From a virus, in the IMG/VR virus record IMGVR_UViG_3300027082_000006, positions 1 through 24,864 of that record: 24,864 bases of DNA. The stretch is one strand, 5' to 3'. How positions within the stretch are numbered: the stretch's first letter is position 1; the number at the start of each line of letters is the position of its first letter. A program made the position numbers and the translations under genes. The notes under the pieces were generated by a model. That model had not been told where the DNA came from. It was given only the letters and a program-made list of their open reading frames with translations, and did not search any database. Positions 3-17,477 of this stretch are shown here, piece by piece.

Positions 3-3000
3 GATAAATCAGGATTAGAGAAAACCGGAGAAGGTATCGGAAAAACATCCAGTCAAGGTTGGGGAGGAACGAAAAACTTAATTGGCAATTTTGCTCAGGA
101 TGCACACGAAAACAAATATAAATCTGCATTGCTTGATCCTAAACAAAGCATTGCAGAGACAATAGGGAATGATATTGTTCATGGTATTACAGGGGAAGAT
201 AGTAAACTTCATGAGCAAAGTCAGGAGTTTGAAGAAAAAACAAAACAACGTAGAGAAGGGTTACAGGAAGCCGGAGAAGAAATAAAAGAAGAAGGCAAGG
301 AATTAATCCGGGAGAAACAGGTTGAAGGAATGGGAAAAGACGGATTTTGGTATGAAATGGGAGAAGTCATGGGATATGCTCTACCTTCTGCCGCTGCCGC
401 TGTAACTTCTTATTTTAACCCTGCCGCCGCTGGTGCAGTAGGACAGGCTGTTATTGGTACAATAGGAATGTCTGCCGCTGGATCAGCAATGCACGAGGTA
501 GAAGAATATTACAGGAATCAAGGACAGGAAGCCCCGGACGGTGTTAAATACGGTGTTGGTTTGGCCGCTGGTGCGTCTGAAATGCTCCTTGAGCAGATAC
601 CGCTTAAAGGTATAATGAAGCCTATCAAAAATACCAAGATTGGAAAAAAGGTATTAGGTAAAACCGTTGCATCTGAATTAATCAGCAATCCAAAAGTGGC
701 TAACAATATTGTAACAAAATTCGCAAAACAGAACCCAAAACTGTTTAAGCGTTATGCTAAGGGTTTAGGCTCTCAAAGTTATAAAGAAGCCGGACAAGAA
801 GGCGTACAGCAAACGATTGAATCCGTGTTGCATAATACTTACATGGATGAAGAAGACAGAAGAGACTTAGATCAGATTCTCCGCAATGGATTAGAAGCCG
901 CTTATAAAGGTGGTTTAATGGGTGGATTTGTAGGAACAATAGGCTCAGGAGCCGTTCCGGTTAATGACATGAAACGCTGGAAAAAAGAAGGAATGACACT
1001 TGCACAAACAAGTGACGGGGAAGTTTACGAATTAATGGGGCAAAAAGACAAAGAAGGGAATACATTTTTTGCAAGAACCAGAGACGGCAAAAATAAGGAA
1101 ATTAAAAAAGAGAATGTTGTCAGTTCAAAACATATTGACAGGAAAGAATTTGAACAGATTGCAAAGAAGGCTAAAGAAGGTACTGCAATAGCTGAAAAAA
1201 CTGAAAGGGATTTACAGAAAGAAAAGAATAAAAAAGAGGCAGAAAAATTAGTTAACCCGGATACAGACGCTATCACTTTATTTGAAAATGAGGATGGCGA
1301 AGTAGAATATGTTTTGAAAGGGAACCCGGAAAATAACAAATCGCTTCCTTCAAACATACTTTTTGCATTAAATCCAAAAACAGGAAAAACCAGACAGGTT
1401 GCTCCAAGTAGCGTGCAAAATGACAAAGTAGAATATCACAGTGTTGATGAATTTGCAGAGAATGTGACGTTAAAACAAGAAGCCTCAGAACAAATGCAGG
1501 CACAGGCTAAAATGGCAGAGCAGAGACAAGGACAGGCACAAGAACAAGGAGGGCAACTGCAAAAAGGCAAACAAGTATCCTATAACGGAGAAAATTATAC
1601 AGTTGATGAAGTTTCTGAGGATAATGTTACCCTATTGAAAGAGACTTCTGAGGAAAGTATGCCTGAGAGCATAGAGGTTCAAAAATCAGAATTTCAAAAT
1701 ATTGGAGAGCCTATACAGGAAGAGCAAACCGGACAAGAACAACAGCAATCAGATCAACAGCAAGGACAGGAACAAGAATCACAGGAAAGTCAAAATCCGG
1801 TTCTCACTATTCAAAGAAATAAGGATACAGAAAAATACGAAGTAGCGCAACAGGATGATGGTAGTTATCGGGTTAATCAAACATTTACTAAGCGAAAAGA
1901 AGCTGAAAAAGTTGCTAACGAACTTAACGAAGAATACGAAAACTCAGAGTTTACAGTAATAGATGAAACTCCAAAAGATGATCCTTTTGCGAAAAATCAA
2001 TTATACATTCATGTAGAACCTAAAACCCAGCAAAATGAAGAAACTAATAAGGAAACAGAAAGAGAGAGTACAGGAGAAGAAAAAGAAGAGAATACAGAAG
2101 ATGTTCAACGAAGTGATGAACAAGTCAATGCAGAACAAAAAGAATCTCAAAAAACTGGACAAACTGAACAGGAAATTGGACAAACTGAACAGGAAGGAAG
2201 AAAAGAAACTGCTACGCAAGATAGACAAGAGACTGAAACAAATCAATCAAGCGAGGAAGGAAGAAAAGCCGAAAGGACTAATCAATCAGGTACAGGAGAA
2301 CAAGAAGTACGAACCGGGAACGCTGAATCAGGAAACGTTTCACAGTTGGATGAAGGAAGCGTTCAAGAGCAGACTGGAACCAATGCCGAGAATACCGGGG
2401 ATAACAGTGAGATACCCGGAGAGACATTCGACAATAGACAACAAGATTCCGTAGGTAAACAAATAAGTACCGAAGAAGTTGAAGGAATGATCGTTGACTA
2501 CCTAATGACAACCAAACAGGAAGCGTTTGAACAGCAACCAGATATGATAGATGAAGTTGTGGATCATTTCTTTAACACCAATGAATATACCGAATTTTAC
2601 GGCACTATCCCGGCAGTACAAAACCGAAAAGAAGATACACAGACTTACAAAACATTCTTAGAAGCTGAAAAGAATGTAAGTAAAGATCGTGTTATTGAAC
2701 AAACTAAATCCCGGATGGGAATTGCTGAACAACAAAACGAACAACAATATGAAGAAACTCAGGAATCTATTCAAGAAGAAACCACAGACGAAGGAGGACA
2801 AACTCAGGAAGAAGCTCAGGAAGGAATTGAACAAGAAGAGGCAGGATCATCTAAAGAAGGTACAGATCAAGAGAGAGATTCACAGGGAGAGAATGAAAAT
2901 GATCGGCCAGTAGGAGAAAACCAGATTTTTACTGAGGAAATGGCTGAAAAAGCCAGACAAAAACTCAGGGAAAAACTAAACAATACCAATGCAGGAGCCG

Positions 3001-6000
3001 ATCCAGAAACAGCTTATTATGCTTTTGTCTTAGGTGGTTATCATGTAGAGAAAGGCGCGCGAAAATTTTCTGATTTTGTCAAGGCAATGGTTAATGACAT
3101 TGGCAGTGGTATTAAGCCGCAATTAAAAGGTGCATACGCCAGTATTAAAAGACAACAAGGAATGGAATCCTATGTTGATGAAATGGATAGCGACCAATAC
3201 GCTGATAATGCAGATATTGATGAAATATTAAATACCGAAGAAAAAACAGACCTTCAAGAAAAAGAAGGTTTGACCATGGATGAAATTGCAGAAGCTAATA
3301 ATGATCTTGATTCAGAAAATCAAATACCTATTGAAAATGCAATAGATTATAAAGAAGAACAATCTGATCAACCAGAAGGAGTTGTAAGTAATGAAGAGGT
3401 TAAAAAAGAATATAAAAGAATAGACTTAACCCAAGAGATAGACAGTTACGACCTGCCTCCTGTATATGAGAGTGAAATAATGGCAAGGTTTGGATTAAAT
3501 GATAAAAAACCCGGACAATTAGAAAGTTTTCAAAAAGAGGAGGCTGATAGAATAGAAAAAGAAATAAGGAAGAAACTATCTAAAAAATACCCGGAATTAA
3601 AACAATCTGATCAACCAGCCAATGAAGGCAGAAGTGTTGAAACAGAGCAGAAGCCGTCCGATAAAGAGGCGACTTCCGAAAAAACAGAGGAAAAACCATC
3701 CGAGGCGCAAAAGAAAGCCGGAAACTATAAGAAAGAAAAAAGAAATATTCGTGGATTGGAGATTGCCATTGAAAACCCGAAAGGTTCAGAAAGGAGTGGA
3801 ACCGACCAACAGGGTAATGAGTGGAGTGTAACCATAAACCATGACTACGGTTACTTCAATCGAACCAAAGGAAAAGACGGAGATCAGATTGATGTATTCC
3901 TGTCAGAAAACCCGGAAGAAGGCAATATTTATGTAGTTGACCAATATAATGAAGATGGCTCTTTTGATGAACACAAAGTAATGATGGGATTTGCCTCTAA
4001 AAATGAAGCCTTAAAGGCTTACAAGTCAAACTACAATAAAGGAGCCGATAATGCCGGAGCCATTACAGAAGTTACAGAGCAACATTTCAAAGAATGGCTT
4101 AATACAGCACAGACTTATTCCAAACCTAAGCGTAAACCATTCTCCAATTTAAAAACAATAGCCAAAAATTCACTATTAGATCAGGTTGAACAATACAATA
4201 AAGAAACTTCTATACAAAAACGTAGGAAAAAGTATCAGGATATTGTTCAACAGGCCGCTAAATTAGGATATAAAGTAAAAGACAAGAAAGGAAAGAAACA
4301 TGACAATTATCGCTGGGATATTGGAATTTTTAACGACAATGGTAAAAAGGTTTACCGGGATAATGAGATAAAAAACACAAGTGAAATGACTAATTTTGTA
4401 CCTTTAAATGAAAGAAGCGAAAAGGTACAGGAAATATTCAGTAAATTATCACAAGCACATGAAGTTTATCCAAAAATCATTGAGGACTTAAAATTAGGTG
4501 GATTAAAGAAAAGTGAAGTTAAAGGGGCAATTAAGGATATACAAGAAGGAAAAAATACTTATCGTGCGCATGAATTACTCGCAGAATTTGAAAATGCAGT
4601 AGCAAATGATTATTTTAGTGTATATGAAACTGGTAAAGGTGCGGACGCACATTACGAGCCAGTAAGTGTTGATGAAGTATTAGAATCAGCAGAGGATGTT
4701 ATAAACAAAGTTAATGAAGAAAACACATTAGAAGAAGAATATAGCGATGTATTACACATAATCTCAGAGTATGAGATTGAAACCCTTGAAGATTTAGAGT
4801 CGTTAAATCAAAAAGGATATTTCGGTCAATTTCCATATACAGAATATGAATATAATCGACTTAAAGAATACCTAAACGAAAAACAAAATGAAGAAAGACG
4901 AAATCAAAAAGAGAGCAAAAAGACAGAAGGCAAGGAGGATTCTTCAAAGGATGCAGGAAAAAGAGAAAGCTCAGAAGATTCTCAACGAACCCCGGAGCAA
5001 CAAAAAATCGCAGAACAGTACGACCAGCGAATAAGAGAAAAAGAAGAGGAACTCTCTAAGGCAAAGAAAAAACGGGAAAAGAAAGTTGCGGAGTTAAATG
5101 ATCGCAACGGCCTTTGGGGAGATACACAAGAGCAAGGAGACTTATTTGCCGGGGATGCCCTGTTTGAATTTAACAAAGAAAATTATGATATTGCTCTCAA
5201 ACCTTACGATCAGGAAATAGAGAGAATCAAACAGGAGATTGAGCAACTAAAATCTGACAAAGAGAAAGCTATACAAGCCGCTGAACAACAAGGCGATTTA
5301 TTTAACGACCAAAAACAAGATAAAAATGTTAGGAATAGATCAGGAAATACTCAACAAGATAGCGGAAACGCAGACGATGGAGTACAAACTAACCAAAATG
5401 ATGATGAGCCTTCCTCCGAGACTGATAGACGAGCGGGAGGAGAATCTAATGAAGGAATTGACCAATCAGGTAATGAAGGATTTTCCAACACTGGACGAGG
5501 ACAAGGCAGAGCTGGTGGCTCTCAAAACGTGGGAGGTTCTCCCGCTTCTACTGGAAAGGGAGGCAATCAACAACTACGCACAGGAGAACAACGATCTAAC
5601 AATAATGATGGCGTTTCCCCCGATGATAGAGACACCGGATCAGGCTCTCCTACTTCTAATGAAGGAAAGCCCGTATTTGAATCAGAAGAAGTACAGGGAG
5701 ATTCTAAAGATAATCAAGATTTACCTGAAACATCTTCCGAAGAGCATGGAGAGAAACAACAGCAAGAAGGAAAGGTAGATGAACAGGTAAAAGACGAAAG
5801 AGGCAATAAAGAAAGTATTGCTCAATCACTTCCTCAATTATATCCAGAACAACACACTGACGTACAAAAAGGCGAAAAACGCTTATATGTTCAAGGCGGC
5901 AAAGGAATGTTGTTTGCCAATGCCACCGGAACCGGAAAAACTTATACCGGACTTGGACTAATCAAGAGAGAAAAACAATTCAACCCGGACGGCACAATCC

Positions 6001-9000
6001 TTATTGTTGTACCTTCTCAACCAAAAATCAAAGATTGGGCTGATGTTGCCGAAAATTTAGATATGGAATTATATCAAGTACCTGACACTAAGAGTAAGCC
6101 ACAGGAGAAAGGTATAAATATTGTCACATTTAAAAATTTCATTGACAACAATAACATGAAAGATTCTGAATTTGATCTTGTCATGTACGATGAAAGTCAC
6201 AAGCTAATGGGCGACAATAAAGGACAAGCCTCTCAAACTACAATAAATCATTATCAACATACTAATAAATCCTATCATTGGACTTTAGAAAAATACAAAG
6301 ATAATACCGGGTTATGGCCTAAAGAAAGAGAATTAAGAGCCAAAATAAACGAATTAGAAAAATACAGAGAAAAGGGAGATGTAAGAAGTTATAAAGAAAT
6401 AAACAAAAAAATTGAAGAAATAAAAGCGCAGATAGGGGAATTAAACAAACAACAAGAAGAAGTATTACCCGAATTAGAGGAAAAAGCTAAAAAAGCAAAA
6501 GACACTAAGGCTGTTTTCCTTTCTGCAACTCCTTTCAAATCACACTTTAATCTGAGATATGCAAATAAATATCTGTTTGATTGGGGAGAAAGTGAAAATC
6601 AGAACGCTTATAATGTTCCAGATGCAGAGGAAAATTTCTTCGTAAGTAACTTTGGGTATAGAATGAGGCATAATAAACTTACCCAACCAGATGAAGCCTC
6701 CGTTGATGTTTCTGCATTGGAGCGAAGATTTGCGGATGCGCTTATGGAACAAGGCTCAATGAGCGCAAGAGTATTGGAAGTAAACAAGGATTATTCCAGA
6801 GAATTTCCTATTGTGTCTGACAAAGAGAGTCAAATATTAAATGAAGGAATCAAAAACGCTATTGATGGCAGAAAATACGAACATCTATCAAAGTATGCAC
6901 GGTTCCGTTTTATAGGTAAAGGCCACTATCCTAAGCGACTGTTTGAAGTATTAAAAGCCAATTATATAGCAGAAAGGATCAAGAAACACAGAGAACTTGG
7001 AAGGAAAGTTGCTATTTATCATGGATACAATGAGGCTGAAATACAGCATCCTTTTAATTTTGAAGGTGCGTATTATCAGTATGTAGATATGAAAAACGGC
7101 AAACAGGTTACAAAATATATAAAAGATGATAAAGAAGCACTGGAAGAATACGAACAGTTTAAAAAAGATAATCCGCAGTTATTTAATTTAAGTTATGACT
7201 TAATCAACCCTATTGATGTATTGAAGAAGAAATTAGGGGAAGATAATGTAATGGTTTATAACGGCAGAATTTCAAATAAAGAGAAAAATGAAGCCAAAAA
7301 GAAATTCAATGATGATAACAGCGGCAAAGATATACTCATAGTTAACCAGCAAGCCGGAAAAGAAGGAATTGATCTGCACGACAAAGAAGGCGGCAAACAA
7401 AGAGTAATGATGAATATTACCATGCCTTCCGATCCTATTACAGCACTTCAAGTTGAAGGTAGAATTTATAGAATGGGTGTGCAGTCAAACGCTATAATGG
7501 AATACCCGGTTTTAGGATTAGACCTTGAAAGCGCACTTTTCGGCTCAGAAATTAACAGACGGGTAGGTACTACGGAAAATCTTGCAATGGGTAGTATTGC
7601 AAGGGATTTAAGAAAATCATTCAAGCAAGGATTTGAACACGCAGAAAGTTACGATCCACATACAGAACAAGGAACCGGAGGTAAAGAAAGAGACGCAAGG
7701 CAGGCAAAAATGTCAGAGTATGAAGAGGCTAAGGCTCTATATCATACGAATTTAAAGAAAACATCTAAGAATAAATCACAGGAAGGACAGGATTATTTTG
7801 CTACCCCTGAGCCTTTAGGATTTAAAATGATCCGGGATTGGGCTAAAGTACCAGAAGGCGGTGACGTGTTAGAACCATCCGCAGGACACGGAGCCATTGC
7901 TCGGTTTGCACCGGAAAAATCTAAACTCACAGCATTAGAACCAATGCAGGGATTGTTTTCAAAATTAAAAGTTAATGCTGGTAGTGGTAGATTGGAGCAA
8001 ACTAATTTTGAAAATTTAGATAAAGTCAATAGTTATGACAGTGTTGTTATGAACCCTCCTTTTGGTAAAGGTGGTAAAACTGCAATAGAGCATATACAAA
8101 AAGCCTTTAATAATCATCTAAGAGACAGAGGACGTATTGTTGCTATTGTGCCGGAAGGAAATGCAATGCAAAAGAGATTAGATGATTTCTTTAATGGAGA
8201 AAATGAAAAGGGAAAACTAAAAAATCCAGATGCAGTTAAACGGGCAGAAATAACACTGCCATCGGTTACTTTTGAACGTGCCGGAACGAAAGTAAGAACT
8301 AAAGTTATTGTTATTGATAAAGTCAAAAATCCTGACAATTACGAAATAGCACCAGAACAACAAACCGATTTAACTCATATTGAATCCACAAAAGAACTGT
8401 TTGAGCGAATTGAAGAATTAAGCAGCGTACCGGATAAAATTTCACAGGAAGATTTAAAAGAAGATGCAAAACAGAATGAAGATATAGAGGAAAATCAGGA
8501 GGCAGAACAAAAAGAAGGCGCAGGAGAAAATAAAGGCACAGGAGAAAAACAGGAAAATGAAGAATATTCTCCTTTAAACCCGGATTCATTTGTAACCATA
8601 GACGACTATCATCATACTAAGCATGACAAGGATATGAAGATTGTTAAACTCTCTCAAAACCTTGCCAGAGATGATTTCTTTAAATCCAAAAAACTTGCTA
8701 AGAATGTTGGCGGTTATTGGAGTAAGTATGCAAAAGGATTCCTGTTTGACAATCAAGAACAAGCCAGTGAATTTGCACGTCAACTAAATGAAAATTTTAG
8801 ACCAAAATTCAGAATAAAGAAAGTTAAACCTTTTCACAGTTTTGCAGAGAATCCTAAAAATAACACTGAGTTTGCCGGAGATGCTTTAAATCTTGCAGTA
8901 AGTAAAGGAGAATTTACGCAGGCAATACAATCCATTGCAGACCAATTTAACAGTGATTTAAACGCAAATATTAAAGTTGTACGAACAGAAAAAGAACTAC

Positions 9001-12000
9001 CGGAGCGTGTAAGACAGCAAAAGAAAACGCAACAAATACAAGGAGAAGTTTCCGGCGTTCATGATCCACGTACAGGTAAAACTTATATCATTGCCGATAA
9101 TATAAAGAATACAGATGCGGCTAAACGTGTTGCGCTTCACGAGATTGTAGGACACAAAGGATTAAGAGGAGTATTAGGAGGCCAATACAATAAAGTATTG
9201 GAAGATATTTACAACTCTATGGAGCAATCTGATATTGACAGGATCAGTCAGATGTATAACACAGAGGATAAAGTCACAATAGCAGATGAATATGTGGCCG
9301 AACAGGCAGAGAAAGATCAAAAACCAAATGTGGTTCAAAAGGCTGTTTCTAAAGTAAGAGAGTTATTGCGAAACTTCTTTAATCTAAAATACAACAAAAA
9401 TGATATAAATAATTTATTGCAGAAAAACAGGGAGTATTTAAGAAAAGGGGCTAATCCTGTAAGCACAGGACAGGAAACAACCAATTCTCAATTTAAGGCT
9501 GAAAAGAAAGAAGATACTGACGATGGTTCGCCAAAGTTTGTTAAAAGTCCGAAGGATTATTTTGTTGAAGGCGTACAGGACTTGCAAGTTTCAGTAAAGA
9601 AAATGCAAAAAGAAGTAAAGAATAAACGAGGAGGAAAAATACCGGAATCTGCCGATGTATATAAAAAGGAAAATTTAAGCTATGGTAAGGTAAGGAAGAA
9701 ACAAGAAGATTATGAAAAGAACCATGAAAAACCGTTGAACGATGTAGTGGAAAAAATAAGCAAAAAACACGGCCAGTCAGTTGAATCTATTGGAGATTAT
9801 TTGATTGCAAAACATTCACTTGAAAATAACGAGTTTTTCAGAGAAAAGCATGTTAAAGAGTATATAGAAAAACAACAGGAAAAAGGAAAAGAACCCACAG
9901 AGGAAGAAATAAACGGATTAAGGGAAGATTTAAAGAAGATTGATTTTACAGGTTTTGCAGAAAACGTAAAAGATCAACTCCCGGACGATTATTCAAAACA
10001 AGTCATTTCTAACTTTGAGAATAATGTTGACAGTCAATTAGTAGATAAATTGCATGAGGAAGTAAGGAAAGCAACTGATTTTGTATTGCAGAAATGGTTT
10101 GATTATGACAGAATAAACAGTGATACACTGGAAGAGTTAAGGAACCGTTTTAATTTCTACGTTCCGTTGAAAGGCTGGGATGAAGCCGCAGAGGAAAAAT
10201 GGGATTTTTCAAGTGATGTTGCGGATCAAATGAATACCTTGATGAAAAGAAAAGGGCGTAAAACTAAACCAGCTAATCCATTGCCACAAATACACTCAAT
10301 GGCAAATGCCGCTATCATTGAAGGCGAAAGAAATGCAGTCAGGAAAGCCTTTGCACGGCTCATTAGTGCTAATAAAAATATCAAAGATAAAGACGGCAAT
10401 TCTATTATGGATGGTATAGGATCGGCTCATATTATTTATGCCGTTGACATGGGTACAAGAGATAAAGAAGGAAATACTATAAGAACCGAAATGATAGAGA
10501 GACCGTCAGAAGAATATTTCGGACAAAAGAATGAAAACGGGGAGCCACTTGTAAAGACAAGAATTGATAATACTTACAAAAGTAAGCGAACAAAATATCA
10601 GGCCAAAGAGCAAGAGATTGAAGTATATATGAATGGCAAAAAATATATTCTCTATGCCAATGATCCCAATATAGCCAGAGCAATTAGAGGAGATATAGGA
10701 ACACAACTCGGAGCATTAAGAGATGTATTTAACAACGGACTGACAAGTGATAAACAAATACAGAAAATCACAGGTGGACTAATCAATCATACTCCCGGAT
10801 TTGGAGAGATAACAAGAACGATGGGGCAGTTATACACAAGCTATAACCCTAACTTTGTTATTGCCAATATGACAAGAGATATTCCCCTTGCCGCAGTTGC
10901 GCACTTTGTTGAAGGAGATATAGGGCAAACCGGAGCCTTTATCAAGAATATGCGTAAGGCCACAAAAGCTCTATTAAAGAATAAAGGCTCAAAAGAAGAA
11001 AAGAAATATTTACAGGATGAAATACAAAAATGGTTAGATCATGGAGGGGAAACAGGTTGGATGCACCTTAAAAATCCAGAGAGATATGAAAGGAAAATAC
11101 GTAAAAAAATTAAAAGACTTGACAAGAAACAACAATACAATCCTTTAAGACACTTAGAAGAACAAGGAGAGAATGTTTTCAAGCATTTAGAACAACTTGC
11201 AAATTTCTCCGAAAACATTGCCCGTTTTGCTACATTCTTAACCTATAAAGACATGGGTTATTCAAATGATGAAGCCGCTTATCAGTCAAAAAGAGTAACC
11301 GTAAACTTTAACAAGAAAGGAAAATGGAGCAATGTTTTAGGCGCAAATTATGTATTCTTTAATGCCGCTGTTCAGGGTATTAAAAGATATGGAGAATTAT
11401 GGGGAGCCAGTCCGTCAAAATTTGGAATGATACACGGGCTGTTAATGTCACAAGGCTTTATGGTATCATGGCTCCTTGATCTGTTTGGTGGAGAAGACGA
11501 TGAAGGCGTAAGATTATATGACAAGATCAATGATTATAAGAAACACAATTACATGATACTTCCAACTTTTGATGGAAAAACATTGGATATTCCAATGCCT
11601 CATATTCTTAGGTATTTCCACATGGTCGGAGGACTTTCTTACGATGCTATGACCGGAAGAAAATCGGCAGAGGAAGTGATCGGAAAAGGTATCGGTGGAC
11701 TTTCTAAAGCCTTTATTCCGGTGGATGCTTCCGGTTTTGTTTCAGAAGAAGGCGATTTTTCATGGAGGCCGCTTATACCAACTTATGCTATTCCGTGGTA
11801 TGATATTGCAGTAAACAAAAATTTTGCGGAATATAGCATTTACAAAGAACCCTTTACACTTGCTGAGGCTGAACGTAAAGCTGATTCGCAAATGTATTTC
11901 GATCACATTAACAAGTTGTATCCGAAAATAACCGATGCACTTTTCAAATTAGGTGGAGGCGACCCGGAAACAGGATATAATTATTATTACGATGAAGCCG

Positions 12001-12536
12001 GAAATCGGAAAGAGGTTCCAGATATATTGGACGTAAATCCAGCATGGATAGAACACCTTGTAACCAGCTATTTTGGTGGAGCCGGAAAATTAGTAAACCA
12101 AATTATGGCTACAAGCATTAATACAGTGGAGGCAGGAAAAGATTTAATGGATAAGGATAAAAATTTCGGAGAAGCGCTCTCTAATATTGATCTTCAACAA
12201 GTGCCTATTTTATACAGGTTCCTCGGAAAAGGTTATGCTGATCCGATAAAAGATAACTACCATAGTGCTGTTGACTATTACAGGGATTATGATAGGAAAC
12301 TTAACGAATGGAAACGACAAAATAATTATGAAGAATTTTTTAGGCTAATGGATGCAGAGAAATATTATAAAAGCGAAATGCTGAAAGAATATACGCAAAT
12401 CATAAACGAACTTGATGAATACGGCAGCGAAGAGCAGAAGCGCAAATATATAAGAAAAGCGTCTGAACTGGCAAAAGAAGATGATCCACGAGAATATGAA
12501 CCTTTAAATATAAAAAAAGAAAATAATAACGAATAA
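3..12536 (+). CDS. Giant multidomain phage polyvalent protein (helicase + DNA methyltransferase + metallopeptidase), 5' partial
   Basis: The frame is open from the first complete codon at nt 3, with no stop, so the true start lies to the left of the window; the TTG at 129 and the first in-frame ATGs are internal. There are 4177 visible residues, ending in TAA at 12534-12536. Domains in order: Ala/Gly-rich hydrophobic segment (about 340-615), Glu/Gln/Lys-rich linkers (about 1480-2450 and 2740-2930), helical polyvalent-associated domain (2940-3161), pyrophosphatase-like domain (3753-4107), coiled-coil/linker (about 4900-5800), SF2 helicase (5835-7640), N6-adenine methyltransferase (7791-8327), small associated domain (8592-8795), zincin (8997-9389) and an LPD38/PLxRFG-like C-terminus (about 9530-12500). 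Known polyvalent proteins of phages and conjugative elements are often delivered with the DNA. The portal gene follows after 17 bases, which suggests co-expression with virion genes. I infer a DarB-like, virion-delivered role in protecting DNA from host defence. The family call is strong; the function is not shown directly. Confidence 0.9.
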   Translation, partial: DKSGLEKTGEGIGKTSSQGWGGTKNLIGNFAQDAHENKYKSALLDPKQSIAETIGNDIVHGITGEDSKLHEQSQEFEEKTKQRREGLQEAGEEIKEEGKELIREKQVEGMGKDGFWYEMGEVMGYALPSAAAAVTSYFNPAAAGAVGQAVIGTIGMSAAGSAMHEVEEYYRNQGQEAPDGVKYGVGLAAGASEMLLEQIPLKGIMKPIKNTKIGKKVLGKTVASELISNPKVANNIVTKFAKQNPKLFKRYAKGLGSQSYKEAGQEGVQQTIESVLHNTYMDEEDRRDLDQILRNGLEAAYKGGLMGGFVGTIGSGAVPVNDMKRWKKEGMTLAQTSDGEVYELMGQKDKEGNTFFARTRDGKNKEIKKENVVSSKHIDRKEFEQIAKKAKEGTAIAEKTERDLQKEKNKKEAEKLVNPDTDAITLFENEDGEVEYVLKGNPENNKSLPSNILFALNPKTGKTRQVAPSSVQNDKVEYHSVDEFAENVTLKQEASEQMQAQAKMAEQRQGQAQEQGGQLQKGKQVSYNGENYTVDEVSEDNVTLLKETSEESMPESIEVQKSEFQNIGEPIQEEQTGQEQQQSDQQQGQEQESQESQNPVLTIQRNKDTEKYEVAQQDDGSYRVNQTFTKRKEAEKVANELNEEYENSEFTVIDETPKDDPFAKNQLYIHVEPKTQQNEETNKETERESTGEEKEENTEDVQRSDEQVNAEQKESQKTGQTEQEIGQTEQEGRKETATQDRQETETNQSSEEGRKAERTNQSGTGEQEVRTGNAESGNVSQLDEGSVQEQTGTNAENTGDNSEIPGETFDNRQQDSVGKQISTEEVEGMIVDYLMTTKQEAFEQQPDMIDEVVDHFFNTNEYTEFYGTIPAVQNRKEDTQTYKTFLEAEKNVSKDRVIEQTKSRMGIAEQQNEQQYEETQESIQEETTDEGGQTQEEAQEGIEQEEAGSSKEGTDQERDSQGENENDRPVGENQIFTEEMAEKARQKLREKLNNTNAGADPETAYYAFVLGGYHVEKGARKFSDFVKAMVNDIGSGIKPQLKGAYASIKRQQGMESYVDEMDSDQYADNADIDEILNTEEKTDLQEKEGLTMDEIAEANNDLDSENQIPIENAIDYKEEQSDQPEGVVSNEEVKKEYKRIDLTQEIDSYDLPPVYESEIMARFGLNDKKPGQLESFQKEEADRIEKEIRKKLSKKYPELKQSDQPANEGRSVETEQKPSDKEATSEKTEEKPSEAQKKAGNYKKEKRNIRGLEIAIENPKGSERSGTDQQGNEWSVTINHDYGYFNRTKGKDGDQIDVFLSENPEEGNIYVVDQYNEDGSFDEHKVMMGFASKNEALKAYKSNYNKGADNAGAITEVTEQHFKEWLNTAQTYSKPKRKPFSNLKTIAKNSLLDQVEQYNKETSIQKRRKKYQDIVQQAAKLGYKVKDKKGKKHDNYRWDIGIFNDNGKKVYRDNEIKNTSEMTNFVPLNERSEKVQEIFSKLSQAHEVYPKIIEDLKLGGLKKSEVKGAIKDIQEGKNTYRAHELLAEFENAVANDYFSVYETGKGADAHYEPVSVDEVLESAEDVINKVNEENTLEEEYSDVLHIISEYEIETLEDLESLNQKGYFGQFPYTEYEYNRLKEYLNEKQNEERRNQKESKKTEGKEDSSKDAGKRESSEDSQRTPEQQKIAEQYDQRIREKEEELSKAKKKREKKVAELNDRNGLWGDTQEQGDLFAGDALFEFNKENYDIALKPYDQEIERIKQEIEQLKSDKEKAIQAAEQQGDLFNDQKQDKNVRNRSGNTQQDSGNADDGVQTNQNDDEPSSETDRRAGGESNEGIDQSGNEGFSNTGRGQGRAGGSQNVGGSPASTGKGGNQQLRTGEQRSNNNDGVSPDDRDTGSGSPTSNEGKPVFESEEVQGDSKDNQDLPETSSEEHGEKQQQEGKVDEQVKDERGNKESIAQSLPQLYPEQHTDVQKGEKRLYVQGGKGMLFANATGTGKTYTGLGLIKREKQFNPDGTILIVVPSQPKIKDWADVAENLDMELYQVPDTKSKPQEKGINIVTFKNFIDNNNMKDSEFDLVMYDESHKLMGDNKGQASQTTINHYQHTNKSYHWTLEKYKDNTGLWPKERELRAKINELEKYREKGDVRSYKEINKKIEEIKAQIGELNKQQEEVLPELEEKAKKAKDTKAVFLSATPFKSHFNLRYANKYLFDWGESENQNAYNVPDAEENFFVSNFGYRMRHNKLTQPDEASVDVSALERRFADALMEQGSMSARVLEVNKDYSREFPIVSDKESQILNEGIKNAIDGRKYEHLSKYARFRFIGKGHYPKRLFEVLKANYIAERIKKHRELGRKVAIYHGYNEAEIQHPFNFEGAYYQYVDMKNGKQVTKYIKDDKEALEEYEQFKKDNPQLFNLSYDLINPIDVLKKKLGEDNVMVYNGRISNKEKNEAKKKFNDDNSGKDILIVNQQAGKEGIDLHDKEGGKQRVMMNITMPSDPITALQVEGRIYRMGVQSNAIMEYPVLGLDLESALFGSEINRRVGTTENLAMGSIARDLRKSFKQGFEHAESYDPHTEQGTGGKERDARQAKMSEYEEAKALYHTNLKKTSKNKSQEGQDYFATPEPLGFKMIRDWAKVPEGGDVLEPSAGHGAIARFAPEKSKLTALEPMQGLFSKLKVNAGSGRLEQTNFENLDKVNSYDSVVMNPPFGKGGKTAIEHIQKAFNNHLRDRGRIVAIVPEGNAMQKRLDDFFNGENEKGKLKNPDAVKRAEITLPSVTFERAGTKVRTKVIVIDKVKNPDNYEIAPEQQTDLTHIESTKELFERIEELSSVPDKISQEDLKEDAKQNEDIEENQEAEQKEGAGENKGTGEKQENEEYSPLNPDSFVTIDDYHHTKHDKDMKIVKLSQNLARDDFFKSKKLAKNVGGYWSKYAKGFLFDNQEQASEFARQLNENFRPKFRIKKVKPFHSFAENPKNNTEFAGDALNLAVSKGEFTQAIQSIADQFNSDLNANIKVVRTEKELPERVRQQKKTQQIQGEVSGVHDPRTGKTYIIADNIKNTDAAKRVALHEIVGHKGLRGVLGGQYNKVLEDIYNSMEQSDIDRISQMYNTEDKVTIADEYVAEQAEKDQKPNVVQKAVSKVRELLRNFFNLKYNKNDINNLLQKNREYLRKGANPVSTGQETTNSQFKAEKKEDTDDGSPKFVKSPKDYFVEGVQDLQVSVKKMQKEVKNKRGGKIPESADVYKKENLSYGKVRKKQEDYEKNHEKPLNDVVEKISKKHGQSVESIGDYLIAKHSLENNEFFREKHVKEYIEKQQEKGKEPTEEEINGLREDLKKIDFTGFAENVKDQLPDDYSKQVISNFENNVDSQLVDKLHEEVRKATDFVLQKWFDYDRINSDTLEELRNRFNFYVPLKGWDEAAEEKWDFSSDVADQMNTLMKRKGRKTKPANPLPQIHSMANAAIIEGERNAVRKAFARLISANKNIKDKDGNSIMDGIGSAHIIYAVDMGTRDKEGNTIRTEMIERPSEEYFGQKNENGEPLVKTRIDNTYKSKRTKYQAKEQEIEVYMNGKKYILYANDPNIARAIRGDIGTQLGALRDVFNNGLTSDKQIQKITGGLINHTPGFGEITRTMGQLYTSYNPNFVIANMTRDIPLAAVAHFVEGDIGQTGAFIKNMRKATKALLKNKGSKEEKKYLQDEIQKWLDHGGETGWMHLKNPERYERKIRKKIKRLDKKQQYNPLRHLEEQGENVFKHLEQLANFSENIARFATFLTYKDMGYSNDEAAYQSKRVTVNFNKKGKWSNVLGANYVFFNAAVQGIKRYGELWGASPSKFGMIHGLLMSQGFMVSWLLDLFGGEDDEGVRLYDKINDYKKHNYMILPTFDGKTLDIPMPHILRYFHMVGGLSYDAMTGRKSAEEVIGKGIGGLSKAFIPVDASGFVSEEGDFSWRPLIPTYAIPWYDIAVNKNFAEYSIYKEPFTLAEAERKADSQMYFDHINKLYPKITDALFKLGGGDPETGYNYYYDEAGNRKEVPDILDVNPAWIEHLVTSYFGGAGKLVNQIMATSINTVEAGKDLMDKDKNFGEALSNIDLQQVPILYRFLGKGYADPIKDNYHSAVDYYRDYDRKLNEWKRQNNYEEFFRLMDAEKYYKSEMLKEYTQIINELDEYGSEEQKRKYIRKASELAKEDDPREYEPLNIKKENNNE
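340..615 (+). other. Ala/Gly-rich hydrophobic segment of the polyvalent protein
   Basis: This part of the giant protein holds two weakly hydrophobic, small-residue-rich stretches. The first contains ALPSAAAAVTSY followed by AAAGAVGQAVIGTIGMSAAG; the second contains YGVGLAAGASEMLLEQIPLKG. Such segments recur near the N-termini of large phage polyvalent or ejected proteins and could associate with membrane during DNA entry. They are not classic transmembrane helices, so membrane contact is inference. Confidence 0.5.
2157..2198 (+). repeat. Two tandem 21-base units in a Gln/Glu-rich linker
   Basis: Two adjacent 21-base units (2157-2177 and 2178-2198) share GGACAAACTGAACAGGAA and differ in the last three bases. 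They encode GQTEQE followed by I or G. They sit in a long Glu/Gln/Lys/Asn/Ser/Thr-rich linker of the giant protein, which looks intrinsically disordered and prone to repeat expansion. Confidence 0.7.
2940..3161 (+). other. Polyvalent-associated helical domain (GYHVEKGARKFSDF motif)
   Basis: This stretch of about 74 residues begins MAEKARQKLREKL, continues through YYAFVLGGYHVEKGARKF and ends near IKPQLKGAYASIKRQQ. The pattern of a GYH-x2-GAR-x-F core followed by IKP-x-LK-x2-Y recurs in phage and mobile-element polyvalent proteins, usually near helicase or methyltransferase domains. Its biochemical role is unknown to me. Confidence 0.55.
3753..4107 (+). other. Inorganic-pyrophosphatase-like domain within the polyvalent protein
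   Basis: The segment opens with IAIENPKGSERSGTD, continues with HDYGYFNRTKGKDGDQIDVF and ends with FDEHKVMMGF and FKEWLN. The DGDQIDV at 3876-3896 closely matches the family I pyrophosphatase signature (D-G-D-P-x-D-V), with Gln in place of Pro, and YGY precedes it at a similar distance as in true pyrophosphatases. A domain named for this resemblance is a known component of phage polyvalent proteins. The acidic metal-binding residues of the signature are present, so activity is possible, but the substrate is unknown. Confidence 0.7.
5835..7640 (+). other. SF2 helicase domain of the polyvalent protein
   Basis: Superfamily 2 motifs appear in the right order. Motif I (Walker A) is ATGTGKT, with GTGKT at 5928-5942. 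Motif II is DESH at 6189-6200. Motif III is SATPF at 6522-6536. Motif VI is QVEGRIYRMG at 7449-7478, with IVNQQAGKEGIDLH upstream. Between motifs II and III lies a Lys/Glu-rich coiled-coil insertion (about 6300-6510). All nucleotide-binding and arginine-finger residues expected of an ATPase are intact. It probably translocates on or remodels DNA, working with the methyltransferase that follows in the same chain. Confidence 0.9.
7791..8327 (+). other. N6-adenine DNA methyltransferase domain of the polyvalent protein
   Basis: The domain begins DYFATPEPLGFKMI and carries the S-adenosylmethionine-binding motif LEPSAGHGA (7869-7895). The catalytic NPPFG (8052-8066) is of the [ND]-PP-[YFW] type of amino-methyltransferases, most often N6-adenine enzymes. 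GRIVAIVPEG follows as the next core strand. Both key motifs are intact. It directly follows the helicase, giving a helicase-methyltransferase pairing also found in phage P1 DarB, although the domain order here is helicase first. Confidence 0.88.
8592..8795 (+). other. Small polyvalent-associated domain (VGGYWSKYAKGFLF motif)
   Basis: This segment of about 65 residues contains HTKHDKDMKIVKLSQNLARD and NVGGYWSKYAKGFLF, then an EQASEFARQL helix. The pattern of a 'HTKTGE-like' strand followed by GGYYS-x4-GF-x-F is common between enzyme domains of phage polyvalent proteins. Function unknown. Confidence 0.5.
8997..9389 (+). other. Zincin-like metallopeptidase domain of the polyvalent protein
   Basis: The motif LHEIVGHKGLR contains HEIVGH (9138-9155), which spaces the two His residues as HExxGH. 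This is the form commonly seen in metallopeptidase domains of phage polyvalent proteins. A downstream DEYVAEQAE (Glu codons at 9288 and 9300) matches the family's expected third zinc ligand. HDPRTGKTYIIADNIKN precedes it, as is typical. It could process the giant chain itself or cleave a host protein; the sequence does not decide which. Confidence 0.75.
10791..12500 (+). other. LPD38 / PLxRFG-type C-terminal region of the polyvalent protein
   Basis: The region starts near TPGFGEITRTMGQLYTSYNP with NFVIANMTRDIP. It then has VNFNKKGKWSNVLGANYVFF followed by NAAVQG, the hallmark of the large polyvalent protein-associated domain 38 type. After this come IPWYDIAVN and a charged helical tail. This is the usual C-terminal end of such proteins in phages with P22- or T7-like heads. 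A role in virion packaging or attachment is plausible but unproven. Confidence 0.7.
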
Positions 12537-12553
12537 AAAAACCAACGTCAATT

Positions 12554-14635
12554 ATGAGTTACAGAGAAAACATAGACTTGCGGTTATACAATGCTCAGAA
12601 TGTAGGTAACAAGAAAAAAACAAATACACAAATTGCAAGAGAAGAAGGCCGGGAAAATGTTCGCGCGAATCTTGAACTATTAGAAAATTGCAGGATTTGT
12701 TGGGAAAATATGGCTGATCTTCGCAAGCGAAGAGAGACAATGGTAAAATATTATCGTGGCGATCAATGGCACGAAATAATCAAGCACCCGGAAACAGGAA
12801 AGTATATAAGAGAAGATGAATACATGAAGGAAAAAGGAAAAATTCCTTTTGTTCAAAACATTACCCGGCAAATTGTAAAAAATCTGATCGGTCAGTACAG
12901 GAATAACCCTTCAAAATCCATAGTTGTTTCACGTTCGCAAGAAGATTCAGAAGCAAGTGAAATGATGACAAATGCCCTGCAAGCAGTAAAACAGGTTAAT
13001 GTAGCAAAAGAACTGGACGTAAGAAATTATGAAGAGAAATTAATTTCCGGGGCGAATATAGCAAAAACAACATACGCTTACTGGCCTTCAAGGCAAACTT
13101 ATGATCTGTTTATTGAAAACATTTCTCTGAATAAATTCTTTATGAATACGGATATAACTGATATTAGGGTAGATCATAATTTGTATTTGTTGGGAGAAAT
13201 TCATGATTTAACGATTGATGAAGTTGTTGCGGCCTTTGCAGAAAATAAAAAGGATGAACAACGACTGAGGAATTTATATAAACACAGAAACTTAGATTAT
13301 ATTTTTCAACTGAATGGATTGGGAACCAAAAATGTAAGTCAGAAAGATTTTTATATTCCGAGACTTGCGCACAAATGCCGGGTTATTGAAGTATGGGAAA
13401 AGAAAGGAGAATGGAGAACACTGGCGCATGACTACGCAGATGGCTCATGGAAAACTACCGAATACAGCCTTGAAGAAATAGACCAGATTAATGAACAACG
13501 GATGCAAAATGCTATCGAGCAAGGATTTGATCCAGAAGAAGTGCCGCTTATTGACGCTTGGGATGAATTTCATCAGTATTGGTTAGGTAAATACCTAACT
13601 CCTTACGGAAATTTATTGTACGAGACAAAAGAGCCTTATACCCATGGCGAACATCCATATTCCATTGATCTTTACCCGCTCGTTGACGGAATGATATGGG
13701 GATTAATCGAAGATATACGAGGACAGCAAAGGTACATTAACAGACTGATCGGATTGTTGGATTTTATTATGGGTGCGGCCGCTAAAGGTGTTCTGTTGGT
13801 TCCAGAGGATGCAATCCCGGATGGTTACACTATTGATGATTTTACGGATGAATGGAGCAAATTTGATGGAGTTATTAAAATTAAACAAAAACCCGGTCAA
13901 CAACTGCCACAGCAAATATCTACAAATGCAACCAATATCGGTGCGCATGAAATGTTATCACTGCAAATGCAGTTAATACAGGAAATATCCGGTGTTTCCG
14001 GTGCAATGCAAGGACATGATGGCGGACAAGGTAAACCAGCCTCCTTGTATGCTCAGGAGGCTCAGAACAGTTCTATTAATTCGTTGGATTTCCTTGAAAC
14101 ATTTCAAAATTTCCAACAAAAAAGAGACATGAAGGCTATTAAAACAATACATCAGTTTTACAAAGAAAGAAGATTCCTTGCTATCTCAGGACAAAGATAC
14201 ACGGAAGAGGCAAAAATATATGAACCGGAGAAAGTCAGGAACATTGAATTTGACGTTACAGTAACGAAAGGAACCGATAGCCCGGTATATCGACAAATGA
14301 TTGATGAAACATTGATGCAACTGTTAGAGGGTCAATACATTGACCTTGAAATGTTTTTGGAAAATACCAATATGCCTTTTGCCTCTCAACTCATGGATTC
14401 ACTTCAAAAAAAGAAACAAGAGGCACAAAAACAACAACAAGCACAAGGACAGATGCCACAACAAGGACAGGCACAAGGGCAAAACATTCCACCGGAGTTG
14501 TTACAGCAAATGAACCAGCAAATACAGCAAGGTAAAGGAGAAGTAGAGAAAAAAGGCGATCCGCAGGCAATGAATATGATAAAAAATGCAGTTAAAAAAA
14601 CAAAACAGGAAGCACAAAAAGAGTCACAGTCATAG
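12554..14635 (+). CDS. Portal protein (P22-like)
   Basis: The 693-residue product is the size of P22-type portals and forms the dodecameric ring at the capsid vertex through which DNA is packaged and ejected. The N-terminal part has the hallmarks ADLRKRRETMVKYYRGDQW and IPFVQNITRQIVKNLIGQYR. The middle contains HPYSIDLYPLVDGMIWGLIEDIRGQQRYINR, split here as two short landmarks (HPYSIDLYPL and IEDIRGQQRYINR). ISGVSGAMQG and GKPASLYAQEAQNSS follow. The last 80 or so residues are Gln/Lys-rich and probably disordered. The gene starts 17 bases after the giant polyvalent gene, is preceded by an A/T-rich leader without Shine-Dalgarno (AATT-ATG), and ends just before a strong terminator. It is co-directional with the head genes, but the terminase between them runs the other way. 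Confidence 0.88.
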   Translation: MSYRENIDLRLYNAQNVGNKKKTNTQIAREEGRENVRANLELLENCRICWENMADLRKRRETMVKYYRGDQWHEIIKHPETGKYIREDEYMKEKGKIPFVQNITRQIVKNLIGQYRNNPSKSIVVSRSQEDSEASEMMTNALQAVKQVNVAKELDVRNYEEKLISGANIAKTTYAYWPSRQTYDLFIENISLNKFFMNTDITDIRVDHNLYLLGEIHDLTIDEVVAAFAENKKDEQRLRNLYKHRNLDYIFQLNGLGTKNVSQKDFYIPRLAHKCRVIEVWEKKGEWRTLAHDYADGSWKTTEYSLEEIDQINEQRMQNAIEQGFDPEEVPLIDAWDEFHQYWLGKYLTPYGNLLYETKEPYTHGEHPYSIDLYPLVDGMIWGLIEDIRGQQRYINRLIGLLDFIMGAAAKGVLLVPEDAIPDGYTIDDFTDEWSKFDGVIKIKQKPGQQLPQQISTNATNIGAHEMLSLQMQLIQEISGVSGAMQGHDGGQGKPASLYAQEAQNSSINSLDFLETFQNFQQKRDMKAIKTIHQFYKERRFLAISGQRYTEEAKIYEPEKVRNIEFDVTVTKGTDSPVYRQMIDETLMQLLEGQYIDLEMFLENTNMPFASQLMDSLQKKKQEAQKQQQAQGQMPQQGQAQGQNIPPELLQQMNQQIQQGKGEVEKKGDPQAMNMIKNAVKKTKQEAQKESQS

Positions 14636-15500: not shown

Positions 15501-17477
15501 TTAATAGCTTGCCTCCGAGACCAATTTTTTACCACTTCTTTTAGGCCGTTCGTCAATTTTTTTAGGTGCATCCATGTAATTAAGAGAGAGCCATACCACC
15601 CCGGCTCTTGTAATAACAATATCATCGTGTTCTCCTTCTACGGCTCCCATGCTCCCGTCCTCTTTGTGTTCGTAACGTGCGTATTCTTCTATTGCTCTTA
15701 TATCTCTTTCGATAAATGCTTCTTCTCTCATTGTCGCATTTAACGTATCAATAATTAATCCTTTAGATGAAGGGTTTGTATGGAAACCATATTTTCGGGG
15801 AATATCCTTAATGTTTTCCGGTGTTTCTCTCATGAAAAGATTGTCGTAATAATCCCCTATCTCATCGAGAATTGTGTAGAAGTGATCGCCTTCTGTACTA
15901 ACCTTTTCTTTTCTTAGAGAGTTTGTCTCAATCGCCAATAATCCTTTATTATAAAAAGTAGCCAGTTGAGCCGCCTTCCATGCAAATAAATCCTGATCCA
16001 TGTGGCAACGATAAGTAGCAACAATTTCCGGTACGCCTGCGTGCATCATCCAATATCTATCCATGACACTGATAACAGACCAGTCAGCACTTGCCGTTCT
16101 GCCGCCAATATCGGCAAAAAGCGCATACCTGTTAGCGATTGGCTCTTCTTTGTCCGGGAGGCTCCATACATATAAATTGCCCCTGTTTTGTTTGTAAAAC
16201 TCTATATTTTTCAGTGCAGATTTACCCTTGTCACTGTCTGCGGATAATTCTCCTATATACTCAGGCTTCTTAACTGTCCTGTTTAGTTTTCTAACATAAG
16301 CCGGATTGAATACTTTCCTTCCTGACGATTGGAAAGCCTCCTGCGCATCGGAAGGAAATTCACTGTTCATTCTCCACTCCGAATAATTTTCTGTATCCCG
16401 GAAATGATTATACCAATGAATACCTTCCAGCGTTGCTCCAAGCGACCACAAATACCAATCATAATCATTCATTTGCTCAATAAATGCCTTATAAAAGCCT
16501 TCAATCTTTTTCTGATACCTTTCAATCTCCCACCAACCTACGAAAACAGGTTTATACCCGCTTTTCCCTTCCGTGGCTTCTCTCCATTCCCGGTAGAAAA
16601 ATCCCAATCCTTTGGCAGTGGATTCCATTACAGACAAAGTATAAGGAATTTGTGGTATAGAGGCTCTAATACTTTGAGTTAAATCTTCTGCTGACTTTTT
16701 CTCCGTATCCTTCCAGAAACCAACTTCGCTCATGTGTACCATTCTATAATCATAAGTACGGGTTGATTCCGGTTTTTGTGCAGAACCTACGCCAACAATA
16801 TTGCCTCTCTCATTAATGTACCTGACTTTCGTACTTCGTTGGTAAGGAGATATAGTGAAAGAGGCCACTTCTTTAGGATGGTTTTCTACAATCGTTTCAC
16901 AGAATCCCTGTATATGTTTTGCCTGATCTTCAACGTCTGCAATAATCGCACTATGCCAGTTTTCTTTTATCATTAGTTGAATCCAGACAATATATGATTG
17001 AACAAGTGTAGAGCCGCCCCACTGACGAGCCTTTGCAATAATAACCCGGATGGGTACGCCCCGGATTCTCATGTCCTCTAAAACGCCAAGTAATTTTCTT
17101 TGCGGCCTGTTAAGTTTGAAAGGAATACGCTTGTCACTTTCCTTGTCCGGTATAGTCATGCAAGTAACCGCCCAAAACTCAAAATCATATTTTAGACGTT
17201 TATCGAATATATCAGATAATAATTCATAGTATAATTCATCTGCCCCTTCAAAATTTTTTTTAAGGTAATCGTAAGCGTTTTTTTGTTTTGAAAGAACAAA
17301 AATCAATTCATCTTCCAACATTTGTTTTGGAAGATACAATGATTCTTTATTGGTAAATTTAAGTTCAAAACGTTCAATAGGGGAGCCAATACCCTTGTGC
17401 GGATCATAAGGAGATTCAAGTTCCTTTAATCTACGTTCATTCTCTTTGATTATGTTTTGAATTTCCTTCTTATTCAT
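15501..17477 (-). CDS. terL: Terminase large subunit (packaging ATPase-nuclease)
   Basis: The 658-residue product is the DNA-packaging motor ATPase and headful or end-cutting nuclease that docks on the portal. In the N-terminal ATPase, NRPQRKLLG (adenine-binding/Q region) precedes a deviant Walker A AKARQWGGST (17007-17036), where the usual GKS/T lysine is replaced and a lysine sits at the front of the motif, a form known in phage terminases. A Walker B-like MVHMSEVGFW keeps the catalytic Glu (about 16726-16744). The RNase H-fold nuclease residues are visible as FADIGG (about 16105), LLAIETNS (about 15933) and EHDDIVI (about 15625). The start overlaps the upstream small gene by 8 bases (ATGAATAA). 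The gene is antiparallel to portal and capsid genes. Confidence 0.92.
   Translation of the reverse strand: MNKKEIQNIIKENERRLKELESPYDPHKGIGSPIERFELKFTNKESLYLPKQMLEDELIFVLSKQKNAYDYLKKNFEGADELYYELLSDIFDKRLKYDFEFWAVTCMTIPDKESDKRIPFKLNRPQRKLLGVLEDMRIRGVPIRVIIAKARQWGGSTLVQSYIVWIQLMIKENWHSAIIADVEDQAKHIQGFCETIVENHPKEVASFTISPYQRSTKVRYINERGNIVGVGSAQKPESTRTYDYRMVHMSEVGFWKDTEKKSAEDLTQSIRASIPQIPYTLSVMESTAKGLGFFYREWREATEGKSGYKPVFVGWWEIERYQKKIEGFYKAFIEQMNDYDWYLWSLGATLEGIHWYNHFRDTENYSEWRMNSEFPSDAQEAFQSSGRKVFNPAYVRKLNRTVKKPEYIGELSADSDKGKSALKNIEFYKQNRGNLYVWSLPDKEEPIANRYALFADIGGRTASADWSVISVMDRYWMMHAGVPEIVATYRCHMDQDLFAWKAAQLATFYNKGLLAIETNSLRKEKVSTEGDHFYTILDEIGDYYDNLFMRETPENIKDIPRKYGFHTNPSSKGLIIDTLNATMREEAFIERDIRAIEEYARYEHKEDGSMGAVEGEHDDIVITRAGVVWLSLNYMDAPKKIDERPKRSGKKLVSEASY

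Follow-up and report, generated by a model that had tools for sequence, protein, structure and literature searches.

The stretch of DNA analysed here (the window) is an entire virus record of 24,864 bases with a GC content of 37%, and it opens with a very long reading frame immediately in front of a portal gene. This arrangement raises the question of what a single chain with several unrelated enzymes does beside the genes of the phage head. The initial annotation had described one frame of at least 4177 residues with four enzyme-like domains, had compared it to the DarB protein of phage P1 and had suggested an ejected protein that blocks host defences.

Gene context and conservation of the giant reading frame

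The genes defining the context are:

3..12536, + strand: giant polyvalent protein gene, open for at least 4177 codons, 5′ end lost at the contig edge
12554..14635, + strand: P22-type portal protein gene (P22_portal, E 1.9e-40)
15501..17477, − strand: terminase large subunit (phrog_2, E 2e-16), homologous to a gene of Bacteroides phage BF1-TP2
18910..20313, + strand: major capsid protein, SU10-like (PF17236, E 1.1e-29)

The frame is open over the length initially claimed and runs off the 5′ edge. All quoted motifs of the four enzyme-like domains are intact and in frame, namely DGDQIDV (residue 1292), GTGKT (1976), DESH (2063), QVEGRIYR (2483), LEPSAGHG (2623), NPPF (2684) and HEIVGH (3046), and Pfam supports the InPase and the helicase. 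The reported distance to the portal gene is also correct, as exactly 17 bases (12537-12553) separate the stop codon from the portal ATG at 12554. In four further contigs (L012, L015, L029, L043) a giant likewise lies within about 100 bases directly upstream of the portal gene.

Genes for a probable scaffold, an adaptor-like protein and an S74-type tail fibre follow further downstream. The genes for portal, terminase, scaffold, capsid and adaptor have homologues in BF1-TP2, and the host of this tailed phage is therefore likely a member of the Bacteroidota. The large terminase gene has an unusual place, on the opposite strand between the portal and the scaffold/capsid genes; the homologous gene of BF1-TP2 is labelled 'tail spike protein', yet its own note names Terminase_6C. 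No companion Dar proteins were seen on this partial contig.

The frame is a fragment; judged by where the N-terminal region begins in L012, L013, L029 and L043, an estimated 200-265 residues are missing. A search for the missing 5′ end with the first 32 bases of the window retrieved only one other viral contig with the same start, L001, which is 98.2% identical to the window across 15.6 kb. Within the giant frame the two differ by 173 synonymous and 69 nonsynonymous changes (pN/pS 0.098); judged from this comparison the gene is under purifying selection and its cargo enzymes are strongly constrained. The start of L001 falls within two bases of that of the window. The first ~1,900 codons of the two are nearly identical with few synonymous changes, whereas synonymous divergence reaches 0.10-0.24 in the zincin, C-terminal and LPD38 parts, and this difference between the halves suggests recombination.

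A profile search with the translocase-methyltransferase dyad found relatives on 334 viral contigs (80 were kept) and at least 45 in bacterial genomes. Each relative is encoded by one long frame, in most cases of 3,100-6,000 codons. Because of the low pN/pS, the number of viral contigs and the long single-frame relatives, the comparison confirms the giant as a real conserved gene and not a chance frame. In PHROGs it matched several uncharacterised giants and the family 'DarB-like antirestriction', while NCBIfam gave no match. Relatives in Stx phages were also named by the search and are known by name from it only.

Domain architecture

The following segments were delimited within the giant protein:

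63..992, + strand: N1, N-terminal region (residues 21-330), conserved with L012, L013, L029 and L043, no named family
2901..3293, + strand: D953, unnamed conserved domain (residues 967-1097), also in JC1 gp69
3702..4103, + strand: InPase, type I inorganic pyrophosphatase-like (PF18823; residues 1234-1367; Pfam E 4.2e-51)
5787..7694, + strand: SWI2/SNF2-type translocase (residues 1929-2564), with Walker A at 5928-5942, DESH at 6189-6200 and motif VI at 7449-7472
7758..8453, + strand: N6-adenine DNA methyltransferase (residues 2586-2817), with YFATPEPL at 7794-7817, LEPSAGHG at 7869-7892 and NPPF at 8052-8063
8535..8906, + strand: X2830, small unnamed conserved domain (residues 2845-2968), which in relatives usually follows the methyltransferase
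8892..9512, + strand: zincin-like metallopeptidase (residues 2964-3170), with HEIVGH (HEXXXH form) at 9138-9155 and the glutamate of IADEYVAE at 9279-9302
9543..12422, + strand: C-terminal carrier module, all-helical (residues 3181-4140), common to giants with different cargo
11517..12131, + strand: LPD38 (PF18857; residues 3839-4043; Pfam E 5.4e-24)

Scanned singly, the N1, D953, X1400, X2830 and zincin segments gave no trustworthy Pfam match. The initial annotation had spoken of LPD-type modules in the plural; Pfam found a single named LPD, LPD38.

The InPase is 46% identical to that of BF1-TP2, and its acidic residues are kept in most of the 23 aligned rows (D in 22, D in 20, D in 22 and E in 21). 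A homologue forms part of the portal chain gp19 of phage Pa193; the Pa193 portal was ruled out as an InPase structure, as residues 529-765 have no density. D953, for which neither Pfam nor NCBIfam provided a name, occurs in 56 of 98 dyad-carrying giants (all giants of at least 1500 residues with the motor were counted) and in 44 of these 56 precedes the motor by 111-211 residues, the distance being about 120 in most giants. The InPase and another segment separate the two in the window giant, and this stretch appears to be an insertion. A segment between InPase and motor, X1400 (window 4173-4997; residues 1390-1665), has a relative in L001 only.

Several giants start with the short motif IxEFxxxIKxKYPxYxDxDDxxLAxxxVxKxPxY (L029 765-905, L013 4334-4474; also L007, L071, L107 and L111), which is possibly a signal for loading into the virion, like the one at the N-terminus of P1 DarB.

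The zincin yielded neither a Pfam nor a PDB match, and its assignment, which we consider likely, rests on the motif, the homologues and the predicted secondary structure. In 34 aligned rows the two histidines of the motif are kept in 33 and 31 and its glutamate as well as the downstream glutamate in all. The structure model places HEIVGH in a helix, with the strands of a small beta sheet before it and IADEYVAE in a later helix, as expected of a zincin. A HEXXXH subset of polyvalent-protein zincins has been described (PMC5512222).

From the zincin through to LPD38 the chain is predominantly helical in the model. Searched against the PDB, the C-terminal carrier gave only weak matches to designed proteins by sequence and no match by fold (best E 0.77). 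Among predicted phage proteins the zincin-to-LPD38 fold matched 86 at E ≤1e-3, including proteins named for LPD38, transglycosylase, RelA/SpoT or methylase.

The translocase-methyltransferase dyad

Pfam recognised ResIII (1946-2075, E 1.6e-9) and Helicase_C (2404-2492, E 3.8e-7) in the translocase, and MTS (2658-2732, E 7.9e-5) in the methyltransferase slightly below the Pfam cut-off. By sequence the methyltransferase profile also matches TaqI methylase. Across 117 aligned dyads the motifs GTGKT, DE (motif II), Q-EGR--R, TPEP, EPSAG-G and NPP[FY] are near-invariant, with some circularity in these counts because the rows had been selected by profile. The initial annotation had named loss of catalytic residues in all close relatives as an argument against its proposal; in the aligned dyads these residues are almost always retained.

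A structure model of the dyad built with 36 sequences reached a pLDDT of 86 and a pTM of 0.81. The best fold matches were remodellers and RapA-type motors; superposed on SWI2/SNF2 remodellers the motor model gave a VIA Z of ~20 over ~400 residues, with rmsd mostly 4-5. The type ISP enzyme LlaBIII (4xqk) was fourth by E-value in Foldseek (E 2.4e-11, TM-score 0.28, 11% identity). Sub-threshold matches to Strawberry-notch models were obtained for dyad relatives. Our literature search on a translocase-first dyad found a single sentence, stating that Strawberry-notch-like motors occur in 'a few instances' of polyvalent proteins (PMC5512222). Neither a target of the methyltransferase nor a target-recognition domain was identified in the giant.

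Solo dyads of 840-870 residues are present in Flavobacteriia phages (L096 9920-12442, L032 9896-12484, L064 9917-12445). In the Chryseobacterium prophage L096 the solo dyad adjoins genes for RusA, PcfK, PcfJ, a PAPS reductase-like protein and a TET-associated (DNA) glycosyltransferase. The existence of solo dyads implies that the dyad is self-sufficient and concerned with DNA, and that it works without injection too.

Constant ends and exchanged cargo

The main result of the comparison, as read from the sequences, is that the ends of the giants are constant and their middles are swapped. In 96 of the 98 giants the methyltransferase follows the motor, while the LPD38 block was found in 53, the zincin profile in 28 and the InPase in 17. 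The giant of BF1-TP2 combines InPase, ART-PolyVal (an ADP-ribosyltransferase), a PBECR5 nuclease and LPD38 and has no dyad. That of L012, directly before the portal gene, carries dyad, ART and RadC. Burkholderia phage JC1 gp69 has D953 and the C-terminal block in common with the window giant (21% identity of the carrier over 1202 residues, E 1e-31; both with LPD38), and its cargo consists of a transglycosylase, a DarB-type methyltransferase-helicase and LPD3. L017 and L044 likewise combine InPase, translocase, methyltransferase, zincin and LPD38, so the four-enzyme set is not unique to the window.

Proposed function and alternative explanations

By analogy with described systems, we consider a virion-carried protection of incoming DNA with self-processing by the zincin the most likely function. 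The complete picture of a packaged, ejected polyvalent protein that protects the entering DNA and bears exchangeable cargo receives slightly better than even credence from us. The giant would be expressed late, when the capsid genes are, would be incorporated into the head and would enter the next cell together with the ejected DNA. A carrier for entry into and exit from the virion would be formed by the zincin-to-LPD38 block at the C-terminus and by the N-terminal region, with the enzymes between them as exchangeable cargo. On the entering duplex the translocase may travel while the attached N6-adenine methyltransferase marks or shields the DNA before restriction. The zincin would cleave the chain and free working pieces, and the InPase may clear pyrophosphate or a nucleotide signal and so favour early phage synthesis. 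Both of these InPase roles were proposed for polyvalent proteins in PMC5512222, where ejection and defence blocking were first suggested for the whole class; for the window giant we infer the same two properties by analogy.

Packaging is proposed because JC1 gp69, with which the giant has the C-terminal carrier in common, is a virion component identified by 51 unique peptides (PMC9144972), and only through this homologue does the virion location suggested earlier find support. No reports on proteomics or function were found for the window phage or for any giant with a translocase-first dyad.

The giant could instead primarily be an internal ejection or core protein that brings the DNA across the envelope, with the enzymes as accessory riders and protection as a minor effect. 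An N-terminal transglycosylase in relatives (JC1 71-164, Parlo 44-150) and the constancy of the carrier beside a variable cargo are in line with this, as are two smaller late genes of ~170-220 and 360-510 codons that precede the giant in BF1-TP2, L013, L043, L016 and JC1. Together with the giant their sizes recall the ejection-protein trio of P22, and large ejection proteins occur in podoviruses. The product of the JC1 upstream gene, gp68, is a virion protein. Nevertheless, apart from JC1 gp68 ('virion structural') the upstream genes gave no PHROG match to ejection proteins, the carrier has no fold match in the PDB and the cargo enzymes are strongly constrained; we regard this explanation as rather unlikely.

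That the dyad acts on the host after injection, by methylating host DNA or by stripping off proteins such as RNA polymerase in the course of takeover, seems to us distinctly improbable. The dyad's methyltransferase has a homologue in DarB, a protein known to protect the injected DNA itself (PMC5512222), although remodellers and RapA-type motors are the best fold matches and effectors aimed at the host, for instance ART and PBECR RNase, occur in sister giants. The solo dyads, one of them beside DNA-modification genes, and the late-gene position would also suit a giant that is not injected at all, a late product that methylates progeny DNA ahead of packaging and is active only in the producing cell. 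For such a protein the fused carrier, which the virion protein JC1 gp69 also has, would be needless, yet giants of several phage lineages retain it, and we give this explanation very little weight.

If protection of entering DNA by an ejected giant holds true, a processive DNA-modifying motor reaches the cell along with the genome in many phages, borne by a common carrier whose cargo is swapped among relatives, and this carrier would be a natural protein-delivery module. The homologues of cultured phages (Parlo, Skulduggery, BF1-TP2) would then serve to study DarB-like protection of entering DNA.

Comparison with known systems

By its sequence features the giant belongs to the phage polyvalent proteins in the definition of Iyer et al. 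2017 (PMC5512222), in agreement with the initial reading. At least two disparate enzyme domains are joined in one chain (InPase, SF2 motor, methyltransferase and zincin motif), two domains listed there as phage-only, LPD38 (PF18857) and InPase (PF18823), score above cut-off, and the gene lies among late virion genes, followed by those for portal, terminase, capsid, an adaptor-like protein and a tail fibre. Giant size, unrelated enzymes, InPase, HEXXXH zincin, adenine methyltransferase with SWI2/SNF2 motor, LPD38 and late-gene context are all features of that class. The usual dyad of the class, however, has the methyltransferase before the helicase and is accompanied by LPD36. The window giant is motor-first; before its methyltransferase lies the helicase, and Pfam gave no LPD36 match there, the existence of an LPD36 model in Pfam being unconfirmed.

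Dyads 36-40% identical with invariant core motifs are found in Serratia phage Parlo gp81 ('DarB-like antirestriction'), Klebsiella phage ZX1 ('PLxRFG protein'), Vibrio phage 1.232.O gp28, Ruegeria phage 45A6 and Pseudomonas phage Skulduggery. An InPase was not found in these five giants, and that of Parlo differs further by its N-terminal transglycosylase and by LPD39 in place of LPD38. BF1-TP2 gp68 resembles the window giant in the InPase, the HEXXXH zincin, the LPD38 C-terminus and the homologous structural genes, but ART-PolyVal and PBECR5 replace the dyad, and portal and terminase genes are located elsewhere. JC1 gp69 (Bcep22 gp75 type, DarB-like), a giant protein of the virion, also combines a methyltransferase with an SNF2 motor, a zincin motif and LPD38. 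It differs in the order methyltransferase then helicase and in its transglycosylase and LPD3, and no InPase was found in it.

P1 DarB, which is packaged and protects DNA (PMC9024508, PMC5512222), shares the junction of an N6 methyltransferase with an SF2 motor and the location of its gene beside the portal gene; P1 darB (L136 10469-17236) directly adjoins the latter and is transcribed divergently. The methyltransferase part of the initial comparison with DarB stood: TPEP, LEPSAGHG and NPPF mark an EcoKI/TaqI-type N6 adenine methyltransferase, and its profile matches DarB at 91-282 with 46.7 bits and JC1 with 43.7 bits. These scores are given in bits because the E-values refer to a set of two sequences. 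Close kinship was not supported. The motor profile (HEL) reached no more than 5.7 bits against DarB and −2.7 bits against JC1, so the helicase is of another lineage, and the translocase precedes the methyltransferase instead of following it. DarB has 2255 residues and gave no HEXXH, InPase or LPD38 match. The giant was rejected as a DarB orthologue on account of the reversed order and of a helicase not measurably related by profile. Since helicase lineage and order differ, the antirestriction that DarB exerts in cis against type I enzymes is not automatically transferable to the giant, and on these sequence comparisons the translocase-first dyad deserves separate treatment.

A single chain with the motor before the methyltransferase is known from the type ISP enzyme LlaBIII (4xqk). 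LlaBIII is a restriction enzyme, whereas the Pfam scan found no nuclease domain in the giant. One could go further and regard the translocase-first dyad as a DNA-protection machine in its own right, carried in the virion, a counterpart to type ISP enzymes that lacks the nuclease and has an origin separate from DarB; it would be interchangeable cargo on a common ejection carrier in hundreds of phages and in the window would have received the InPase by insertion between D953 and motor; we consider this combined proposal doubtful. Class, domains and the idea of delivery were published in 2017, and the carrier/cargo pattern and the distinct translocase-first dyad usefully extend them. The giant of the window thus takes its place as an unusually complete member of the polyvalent class already described.
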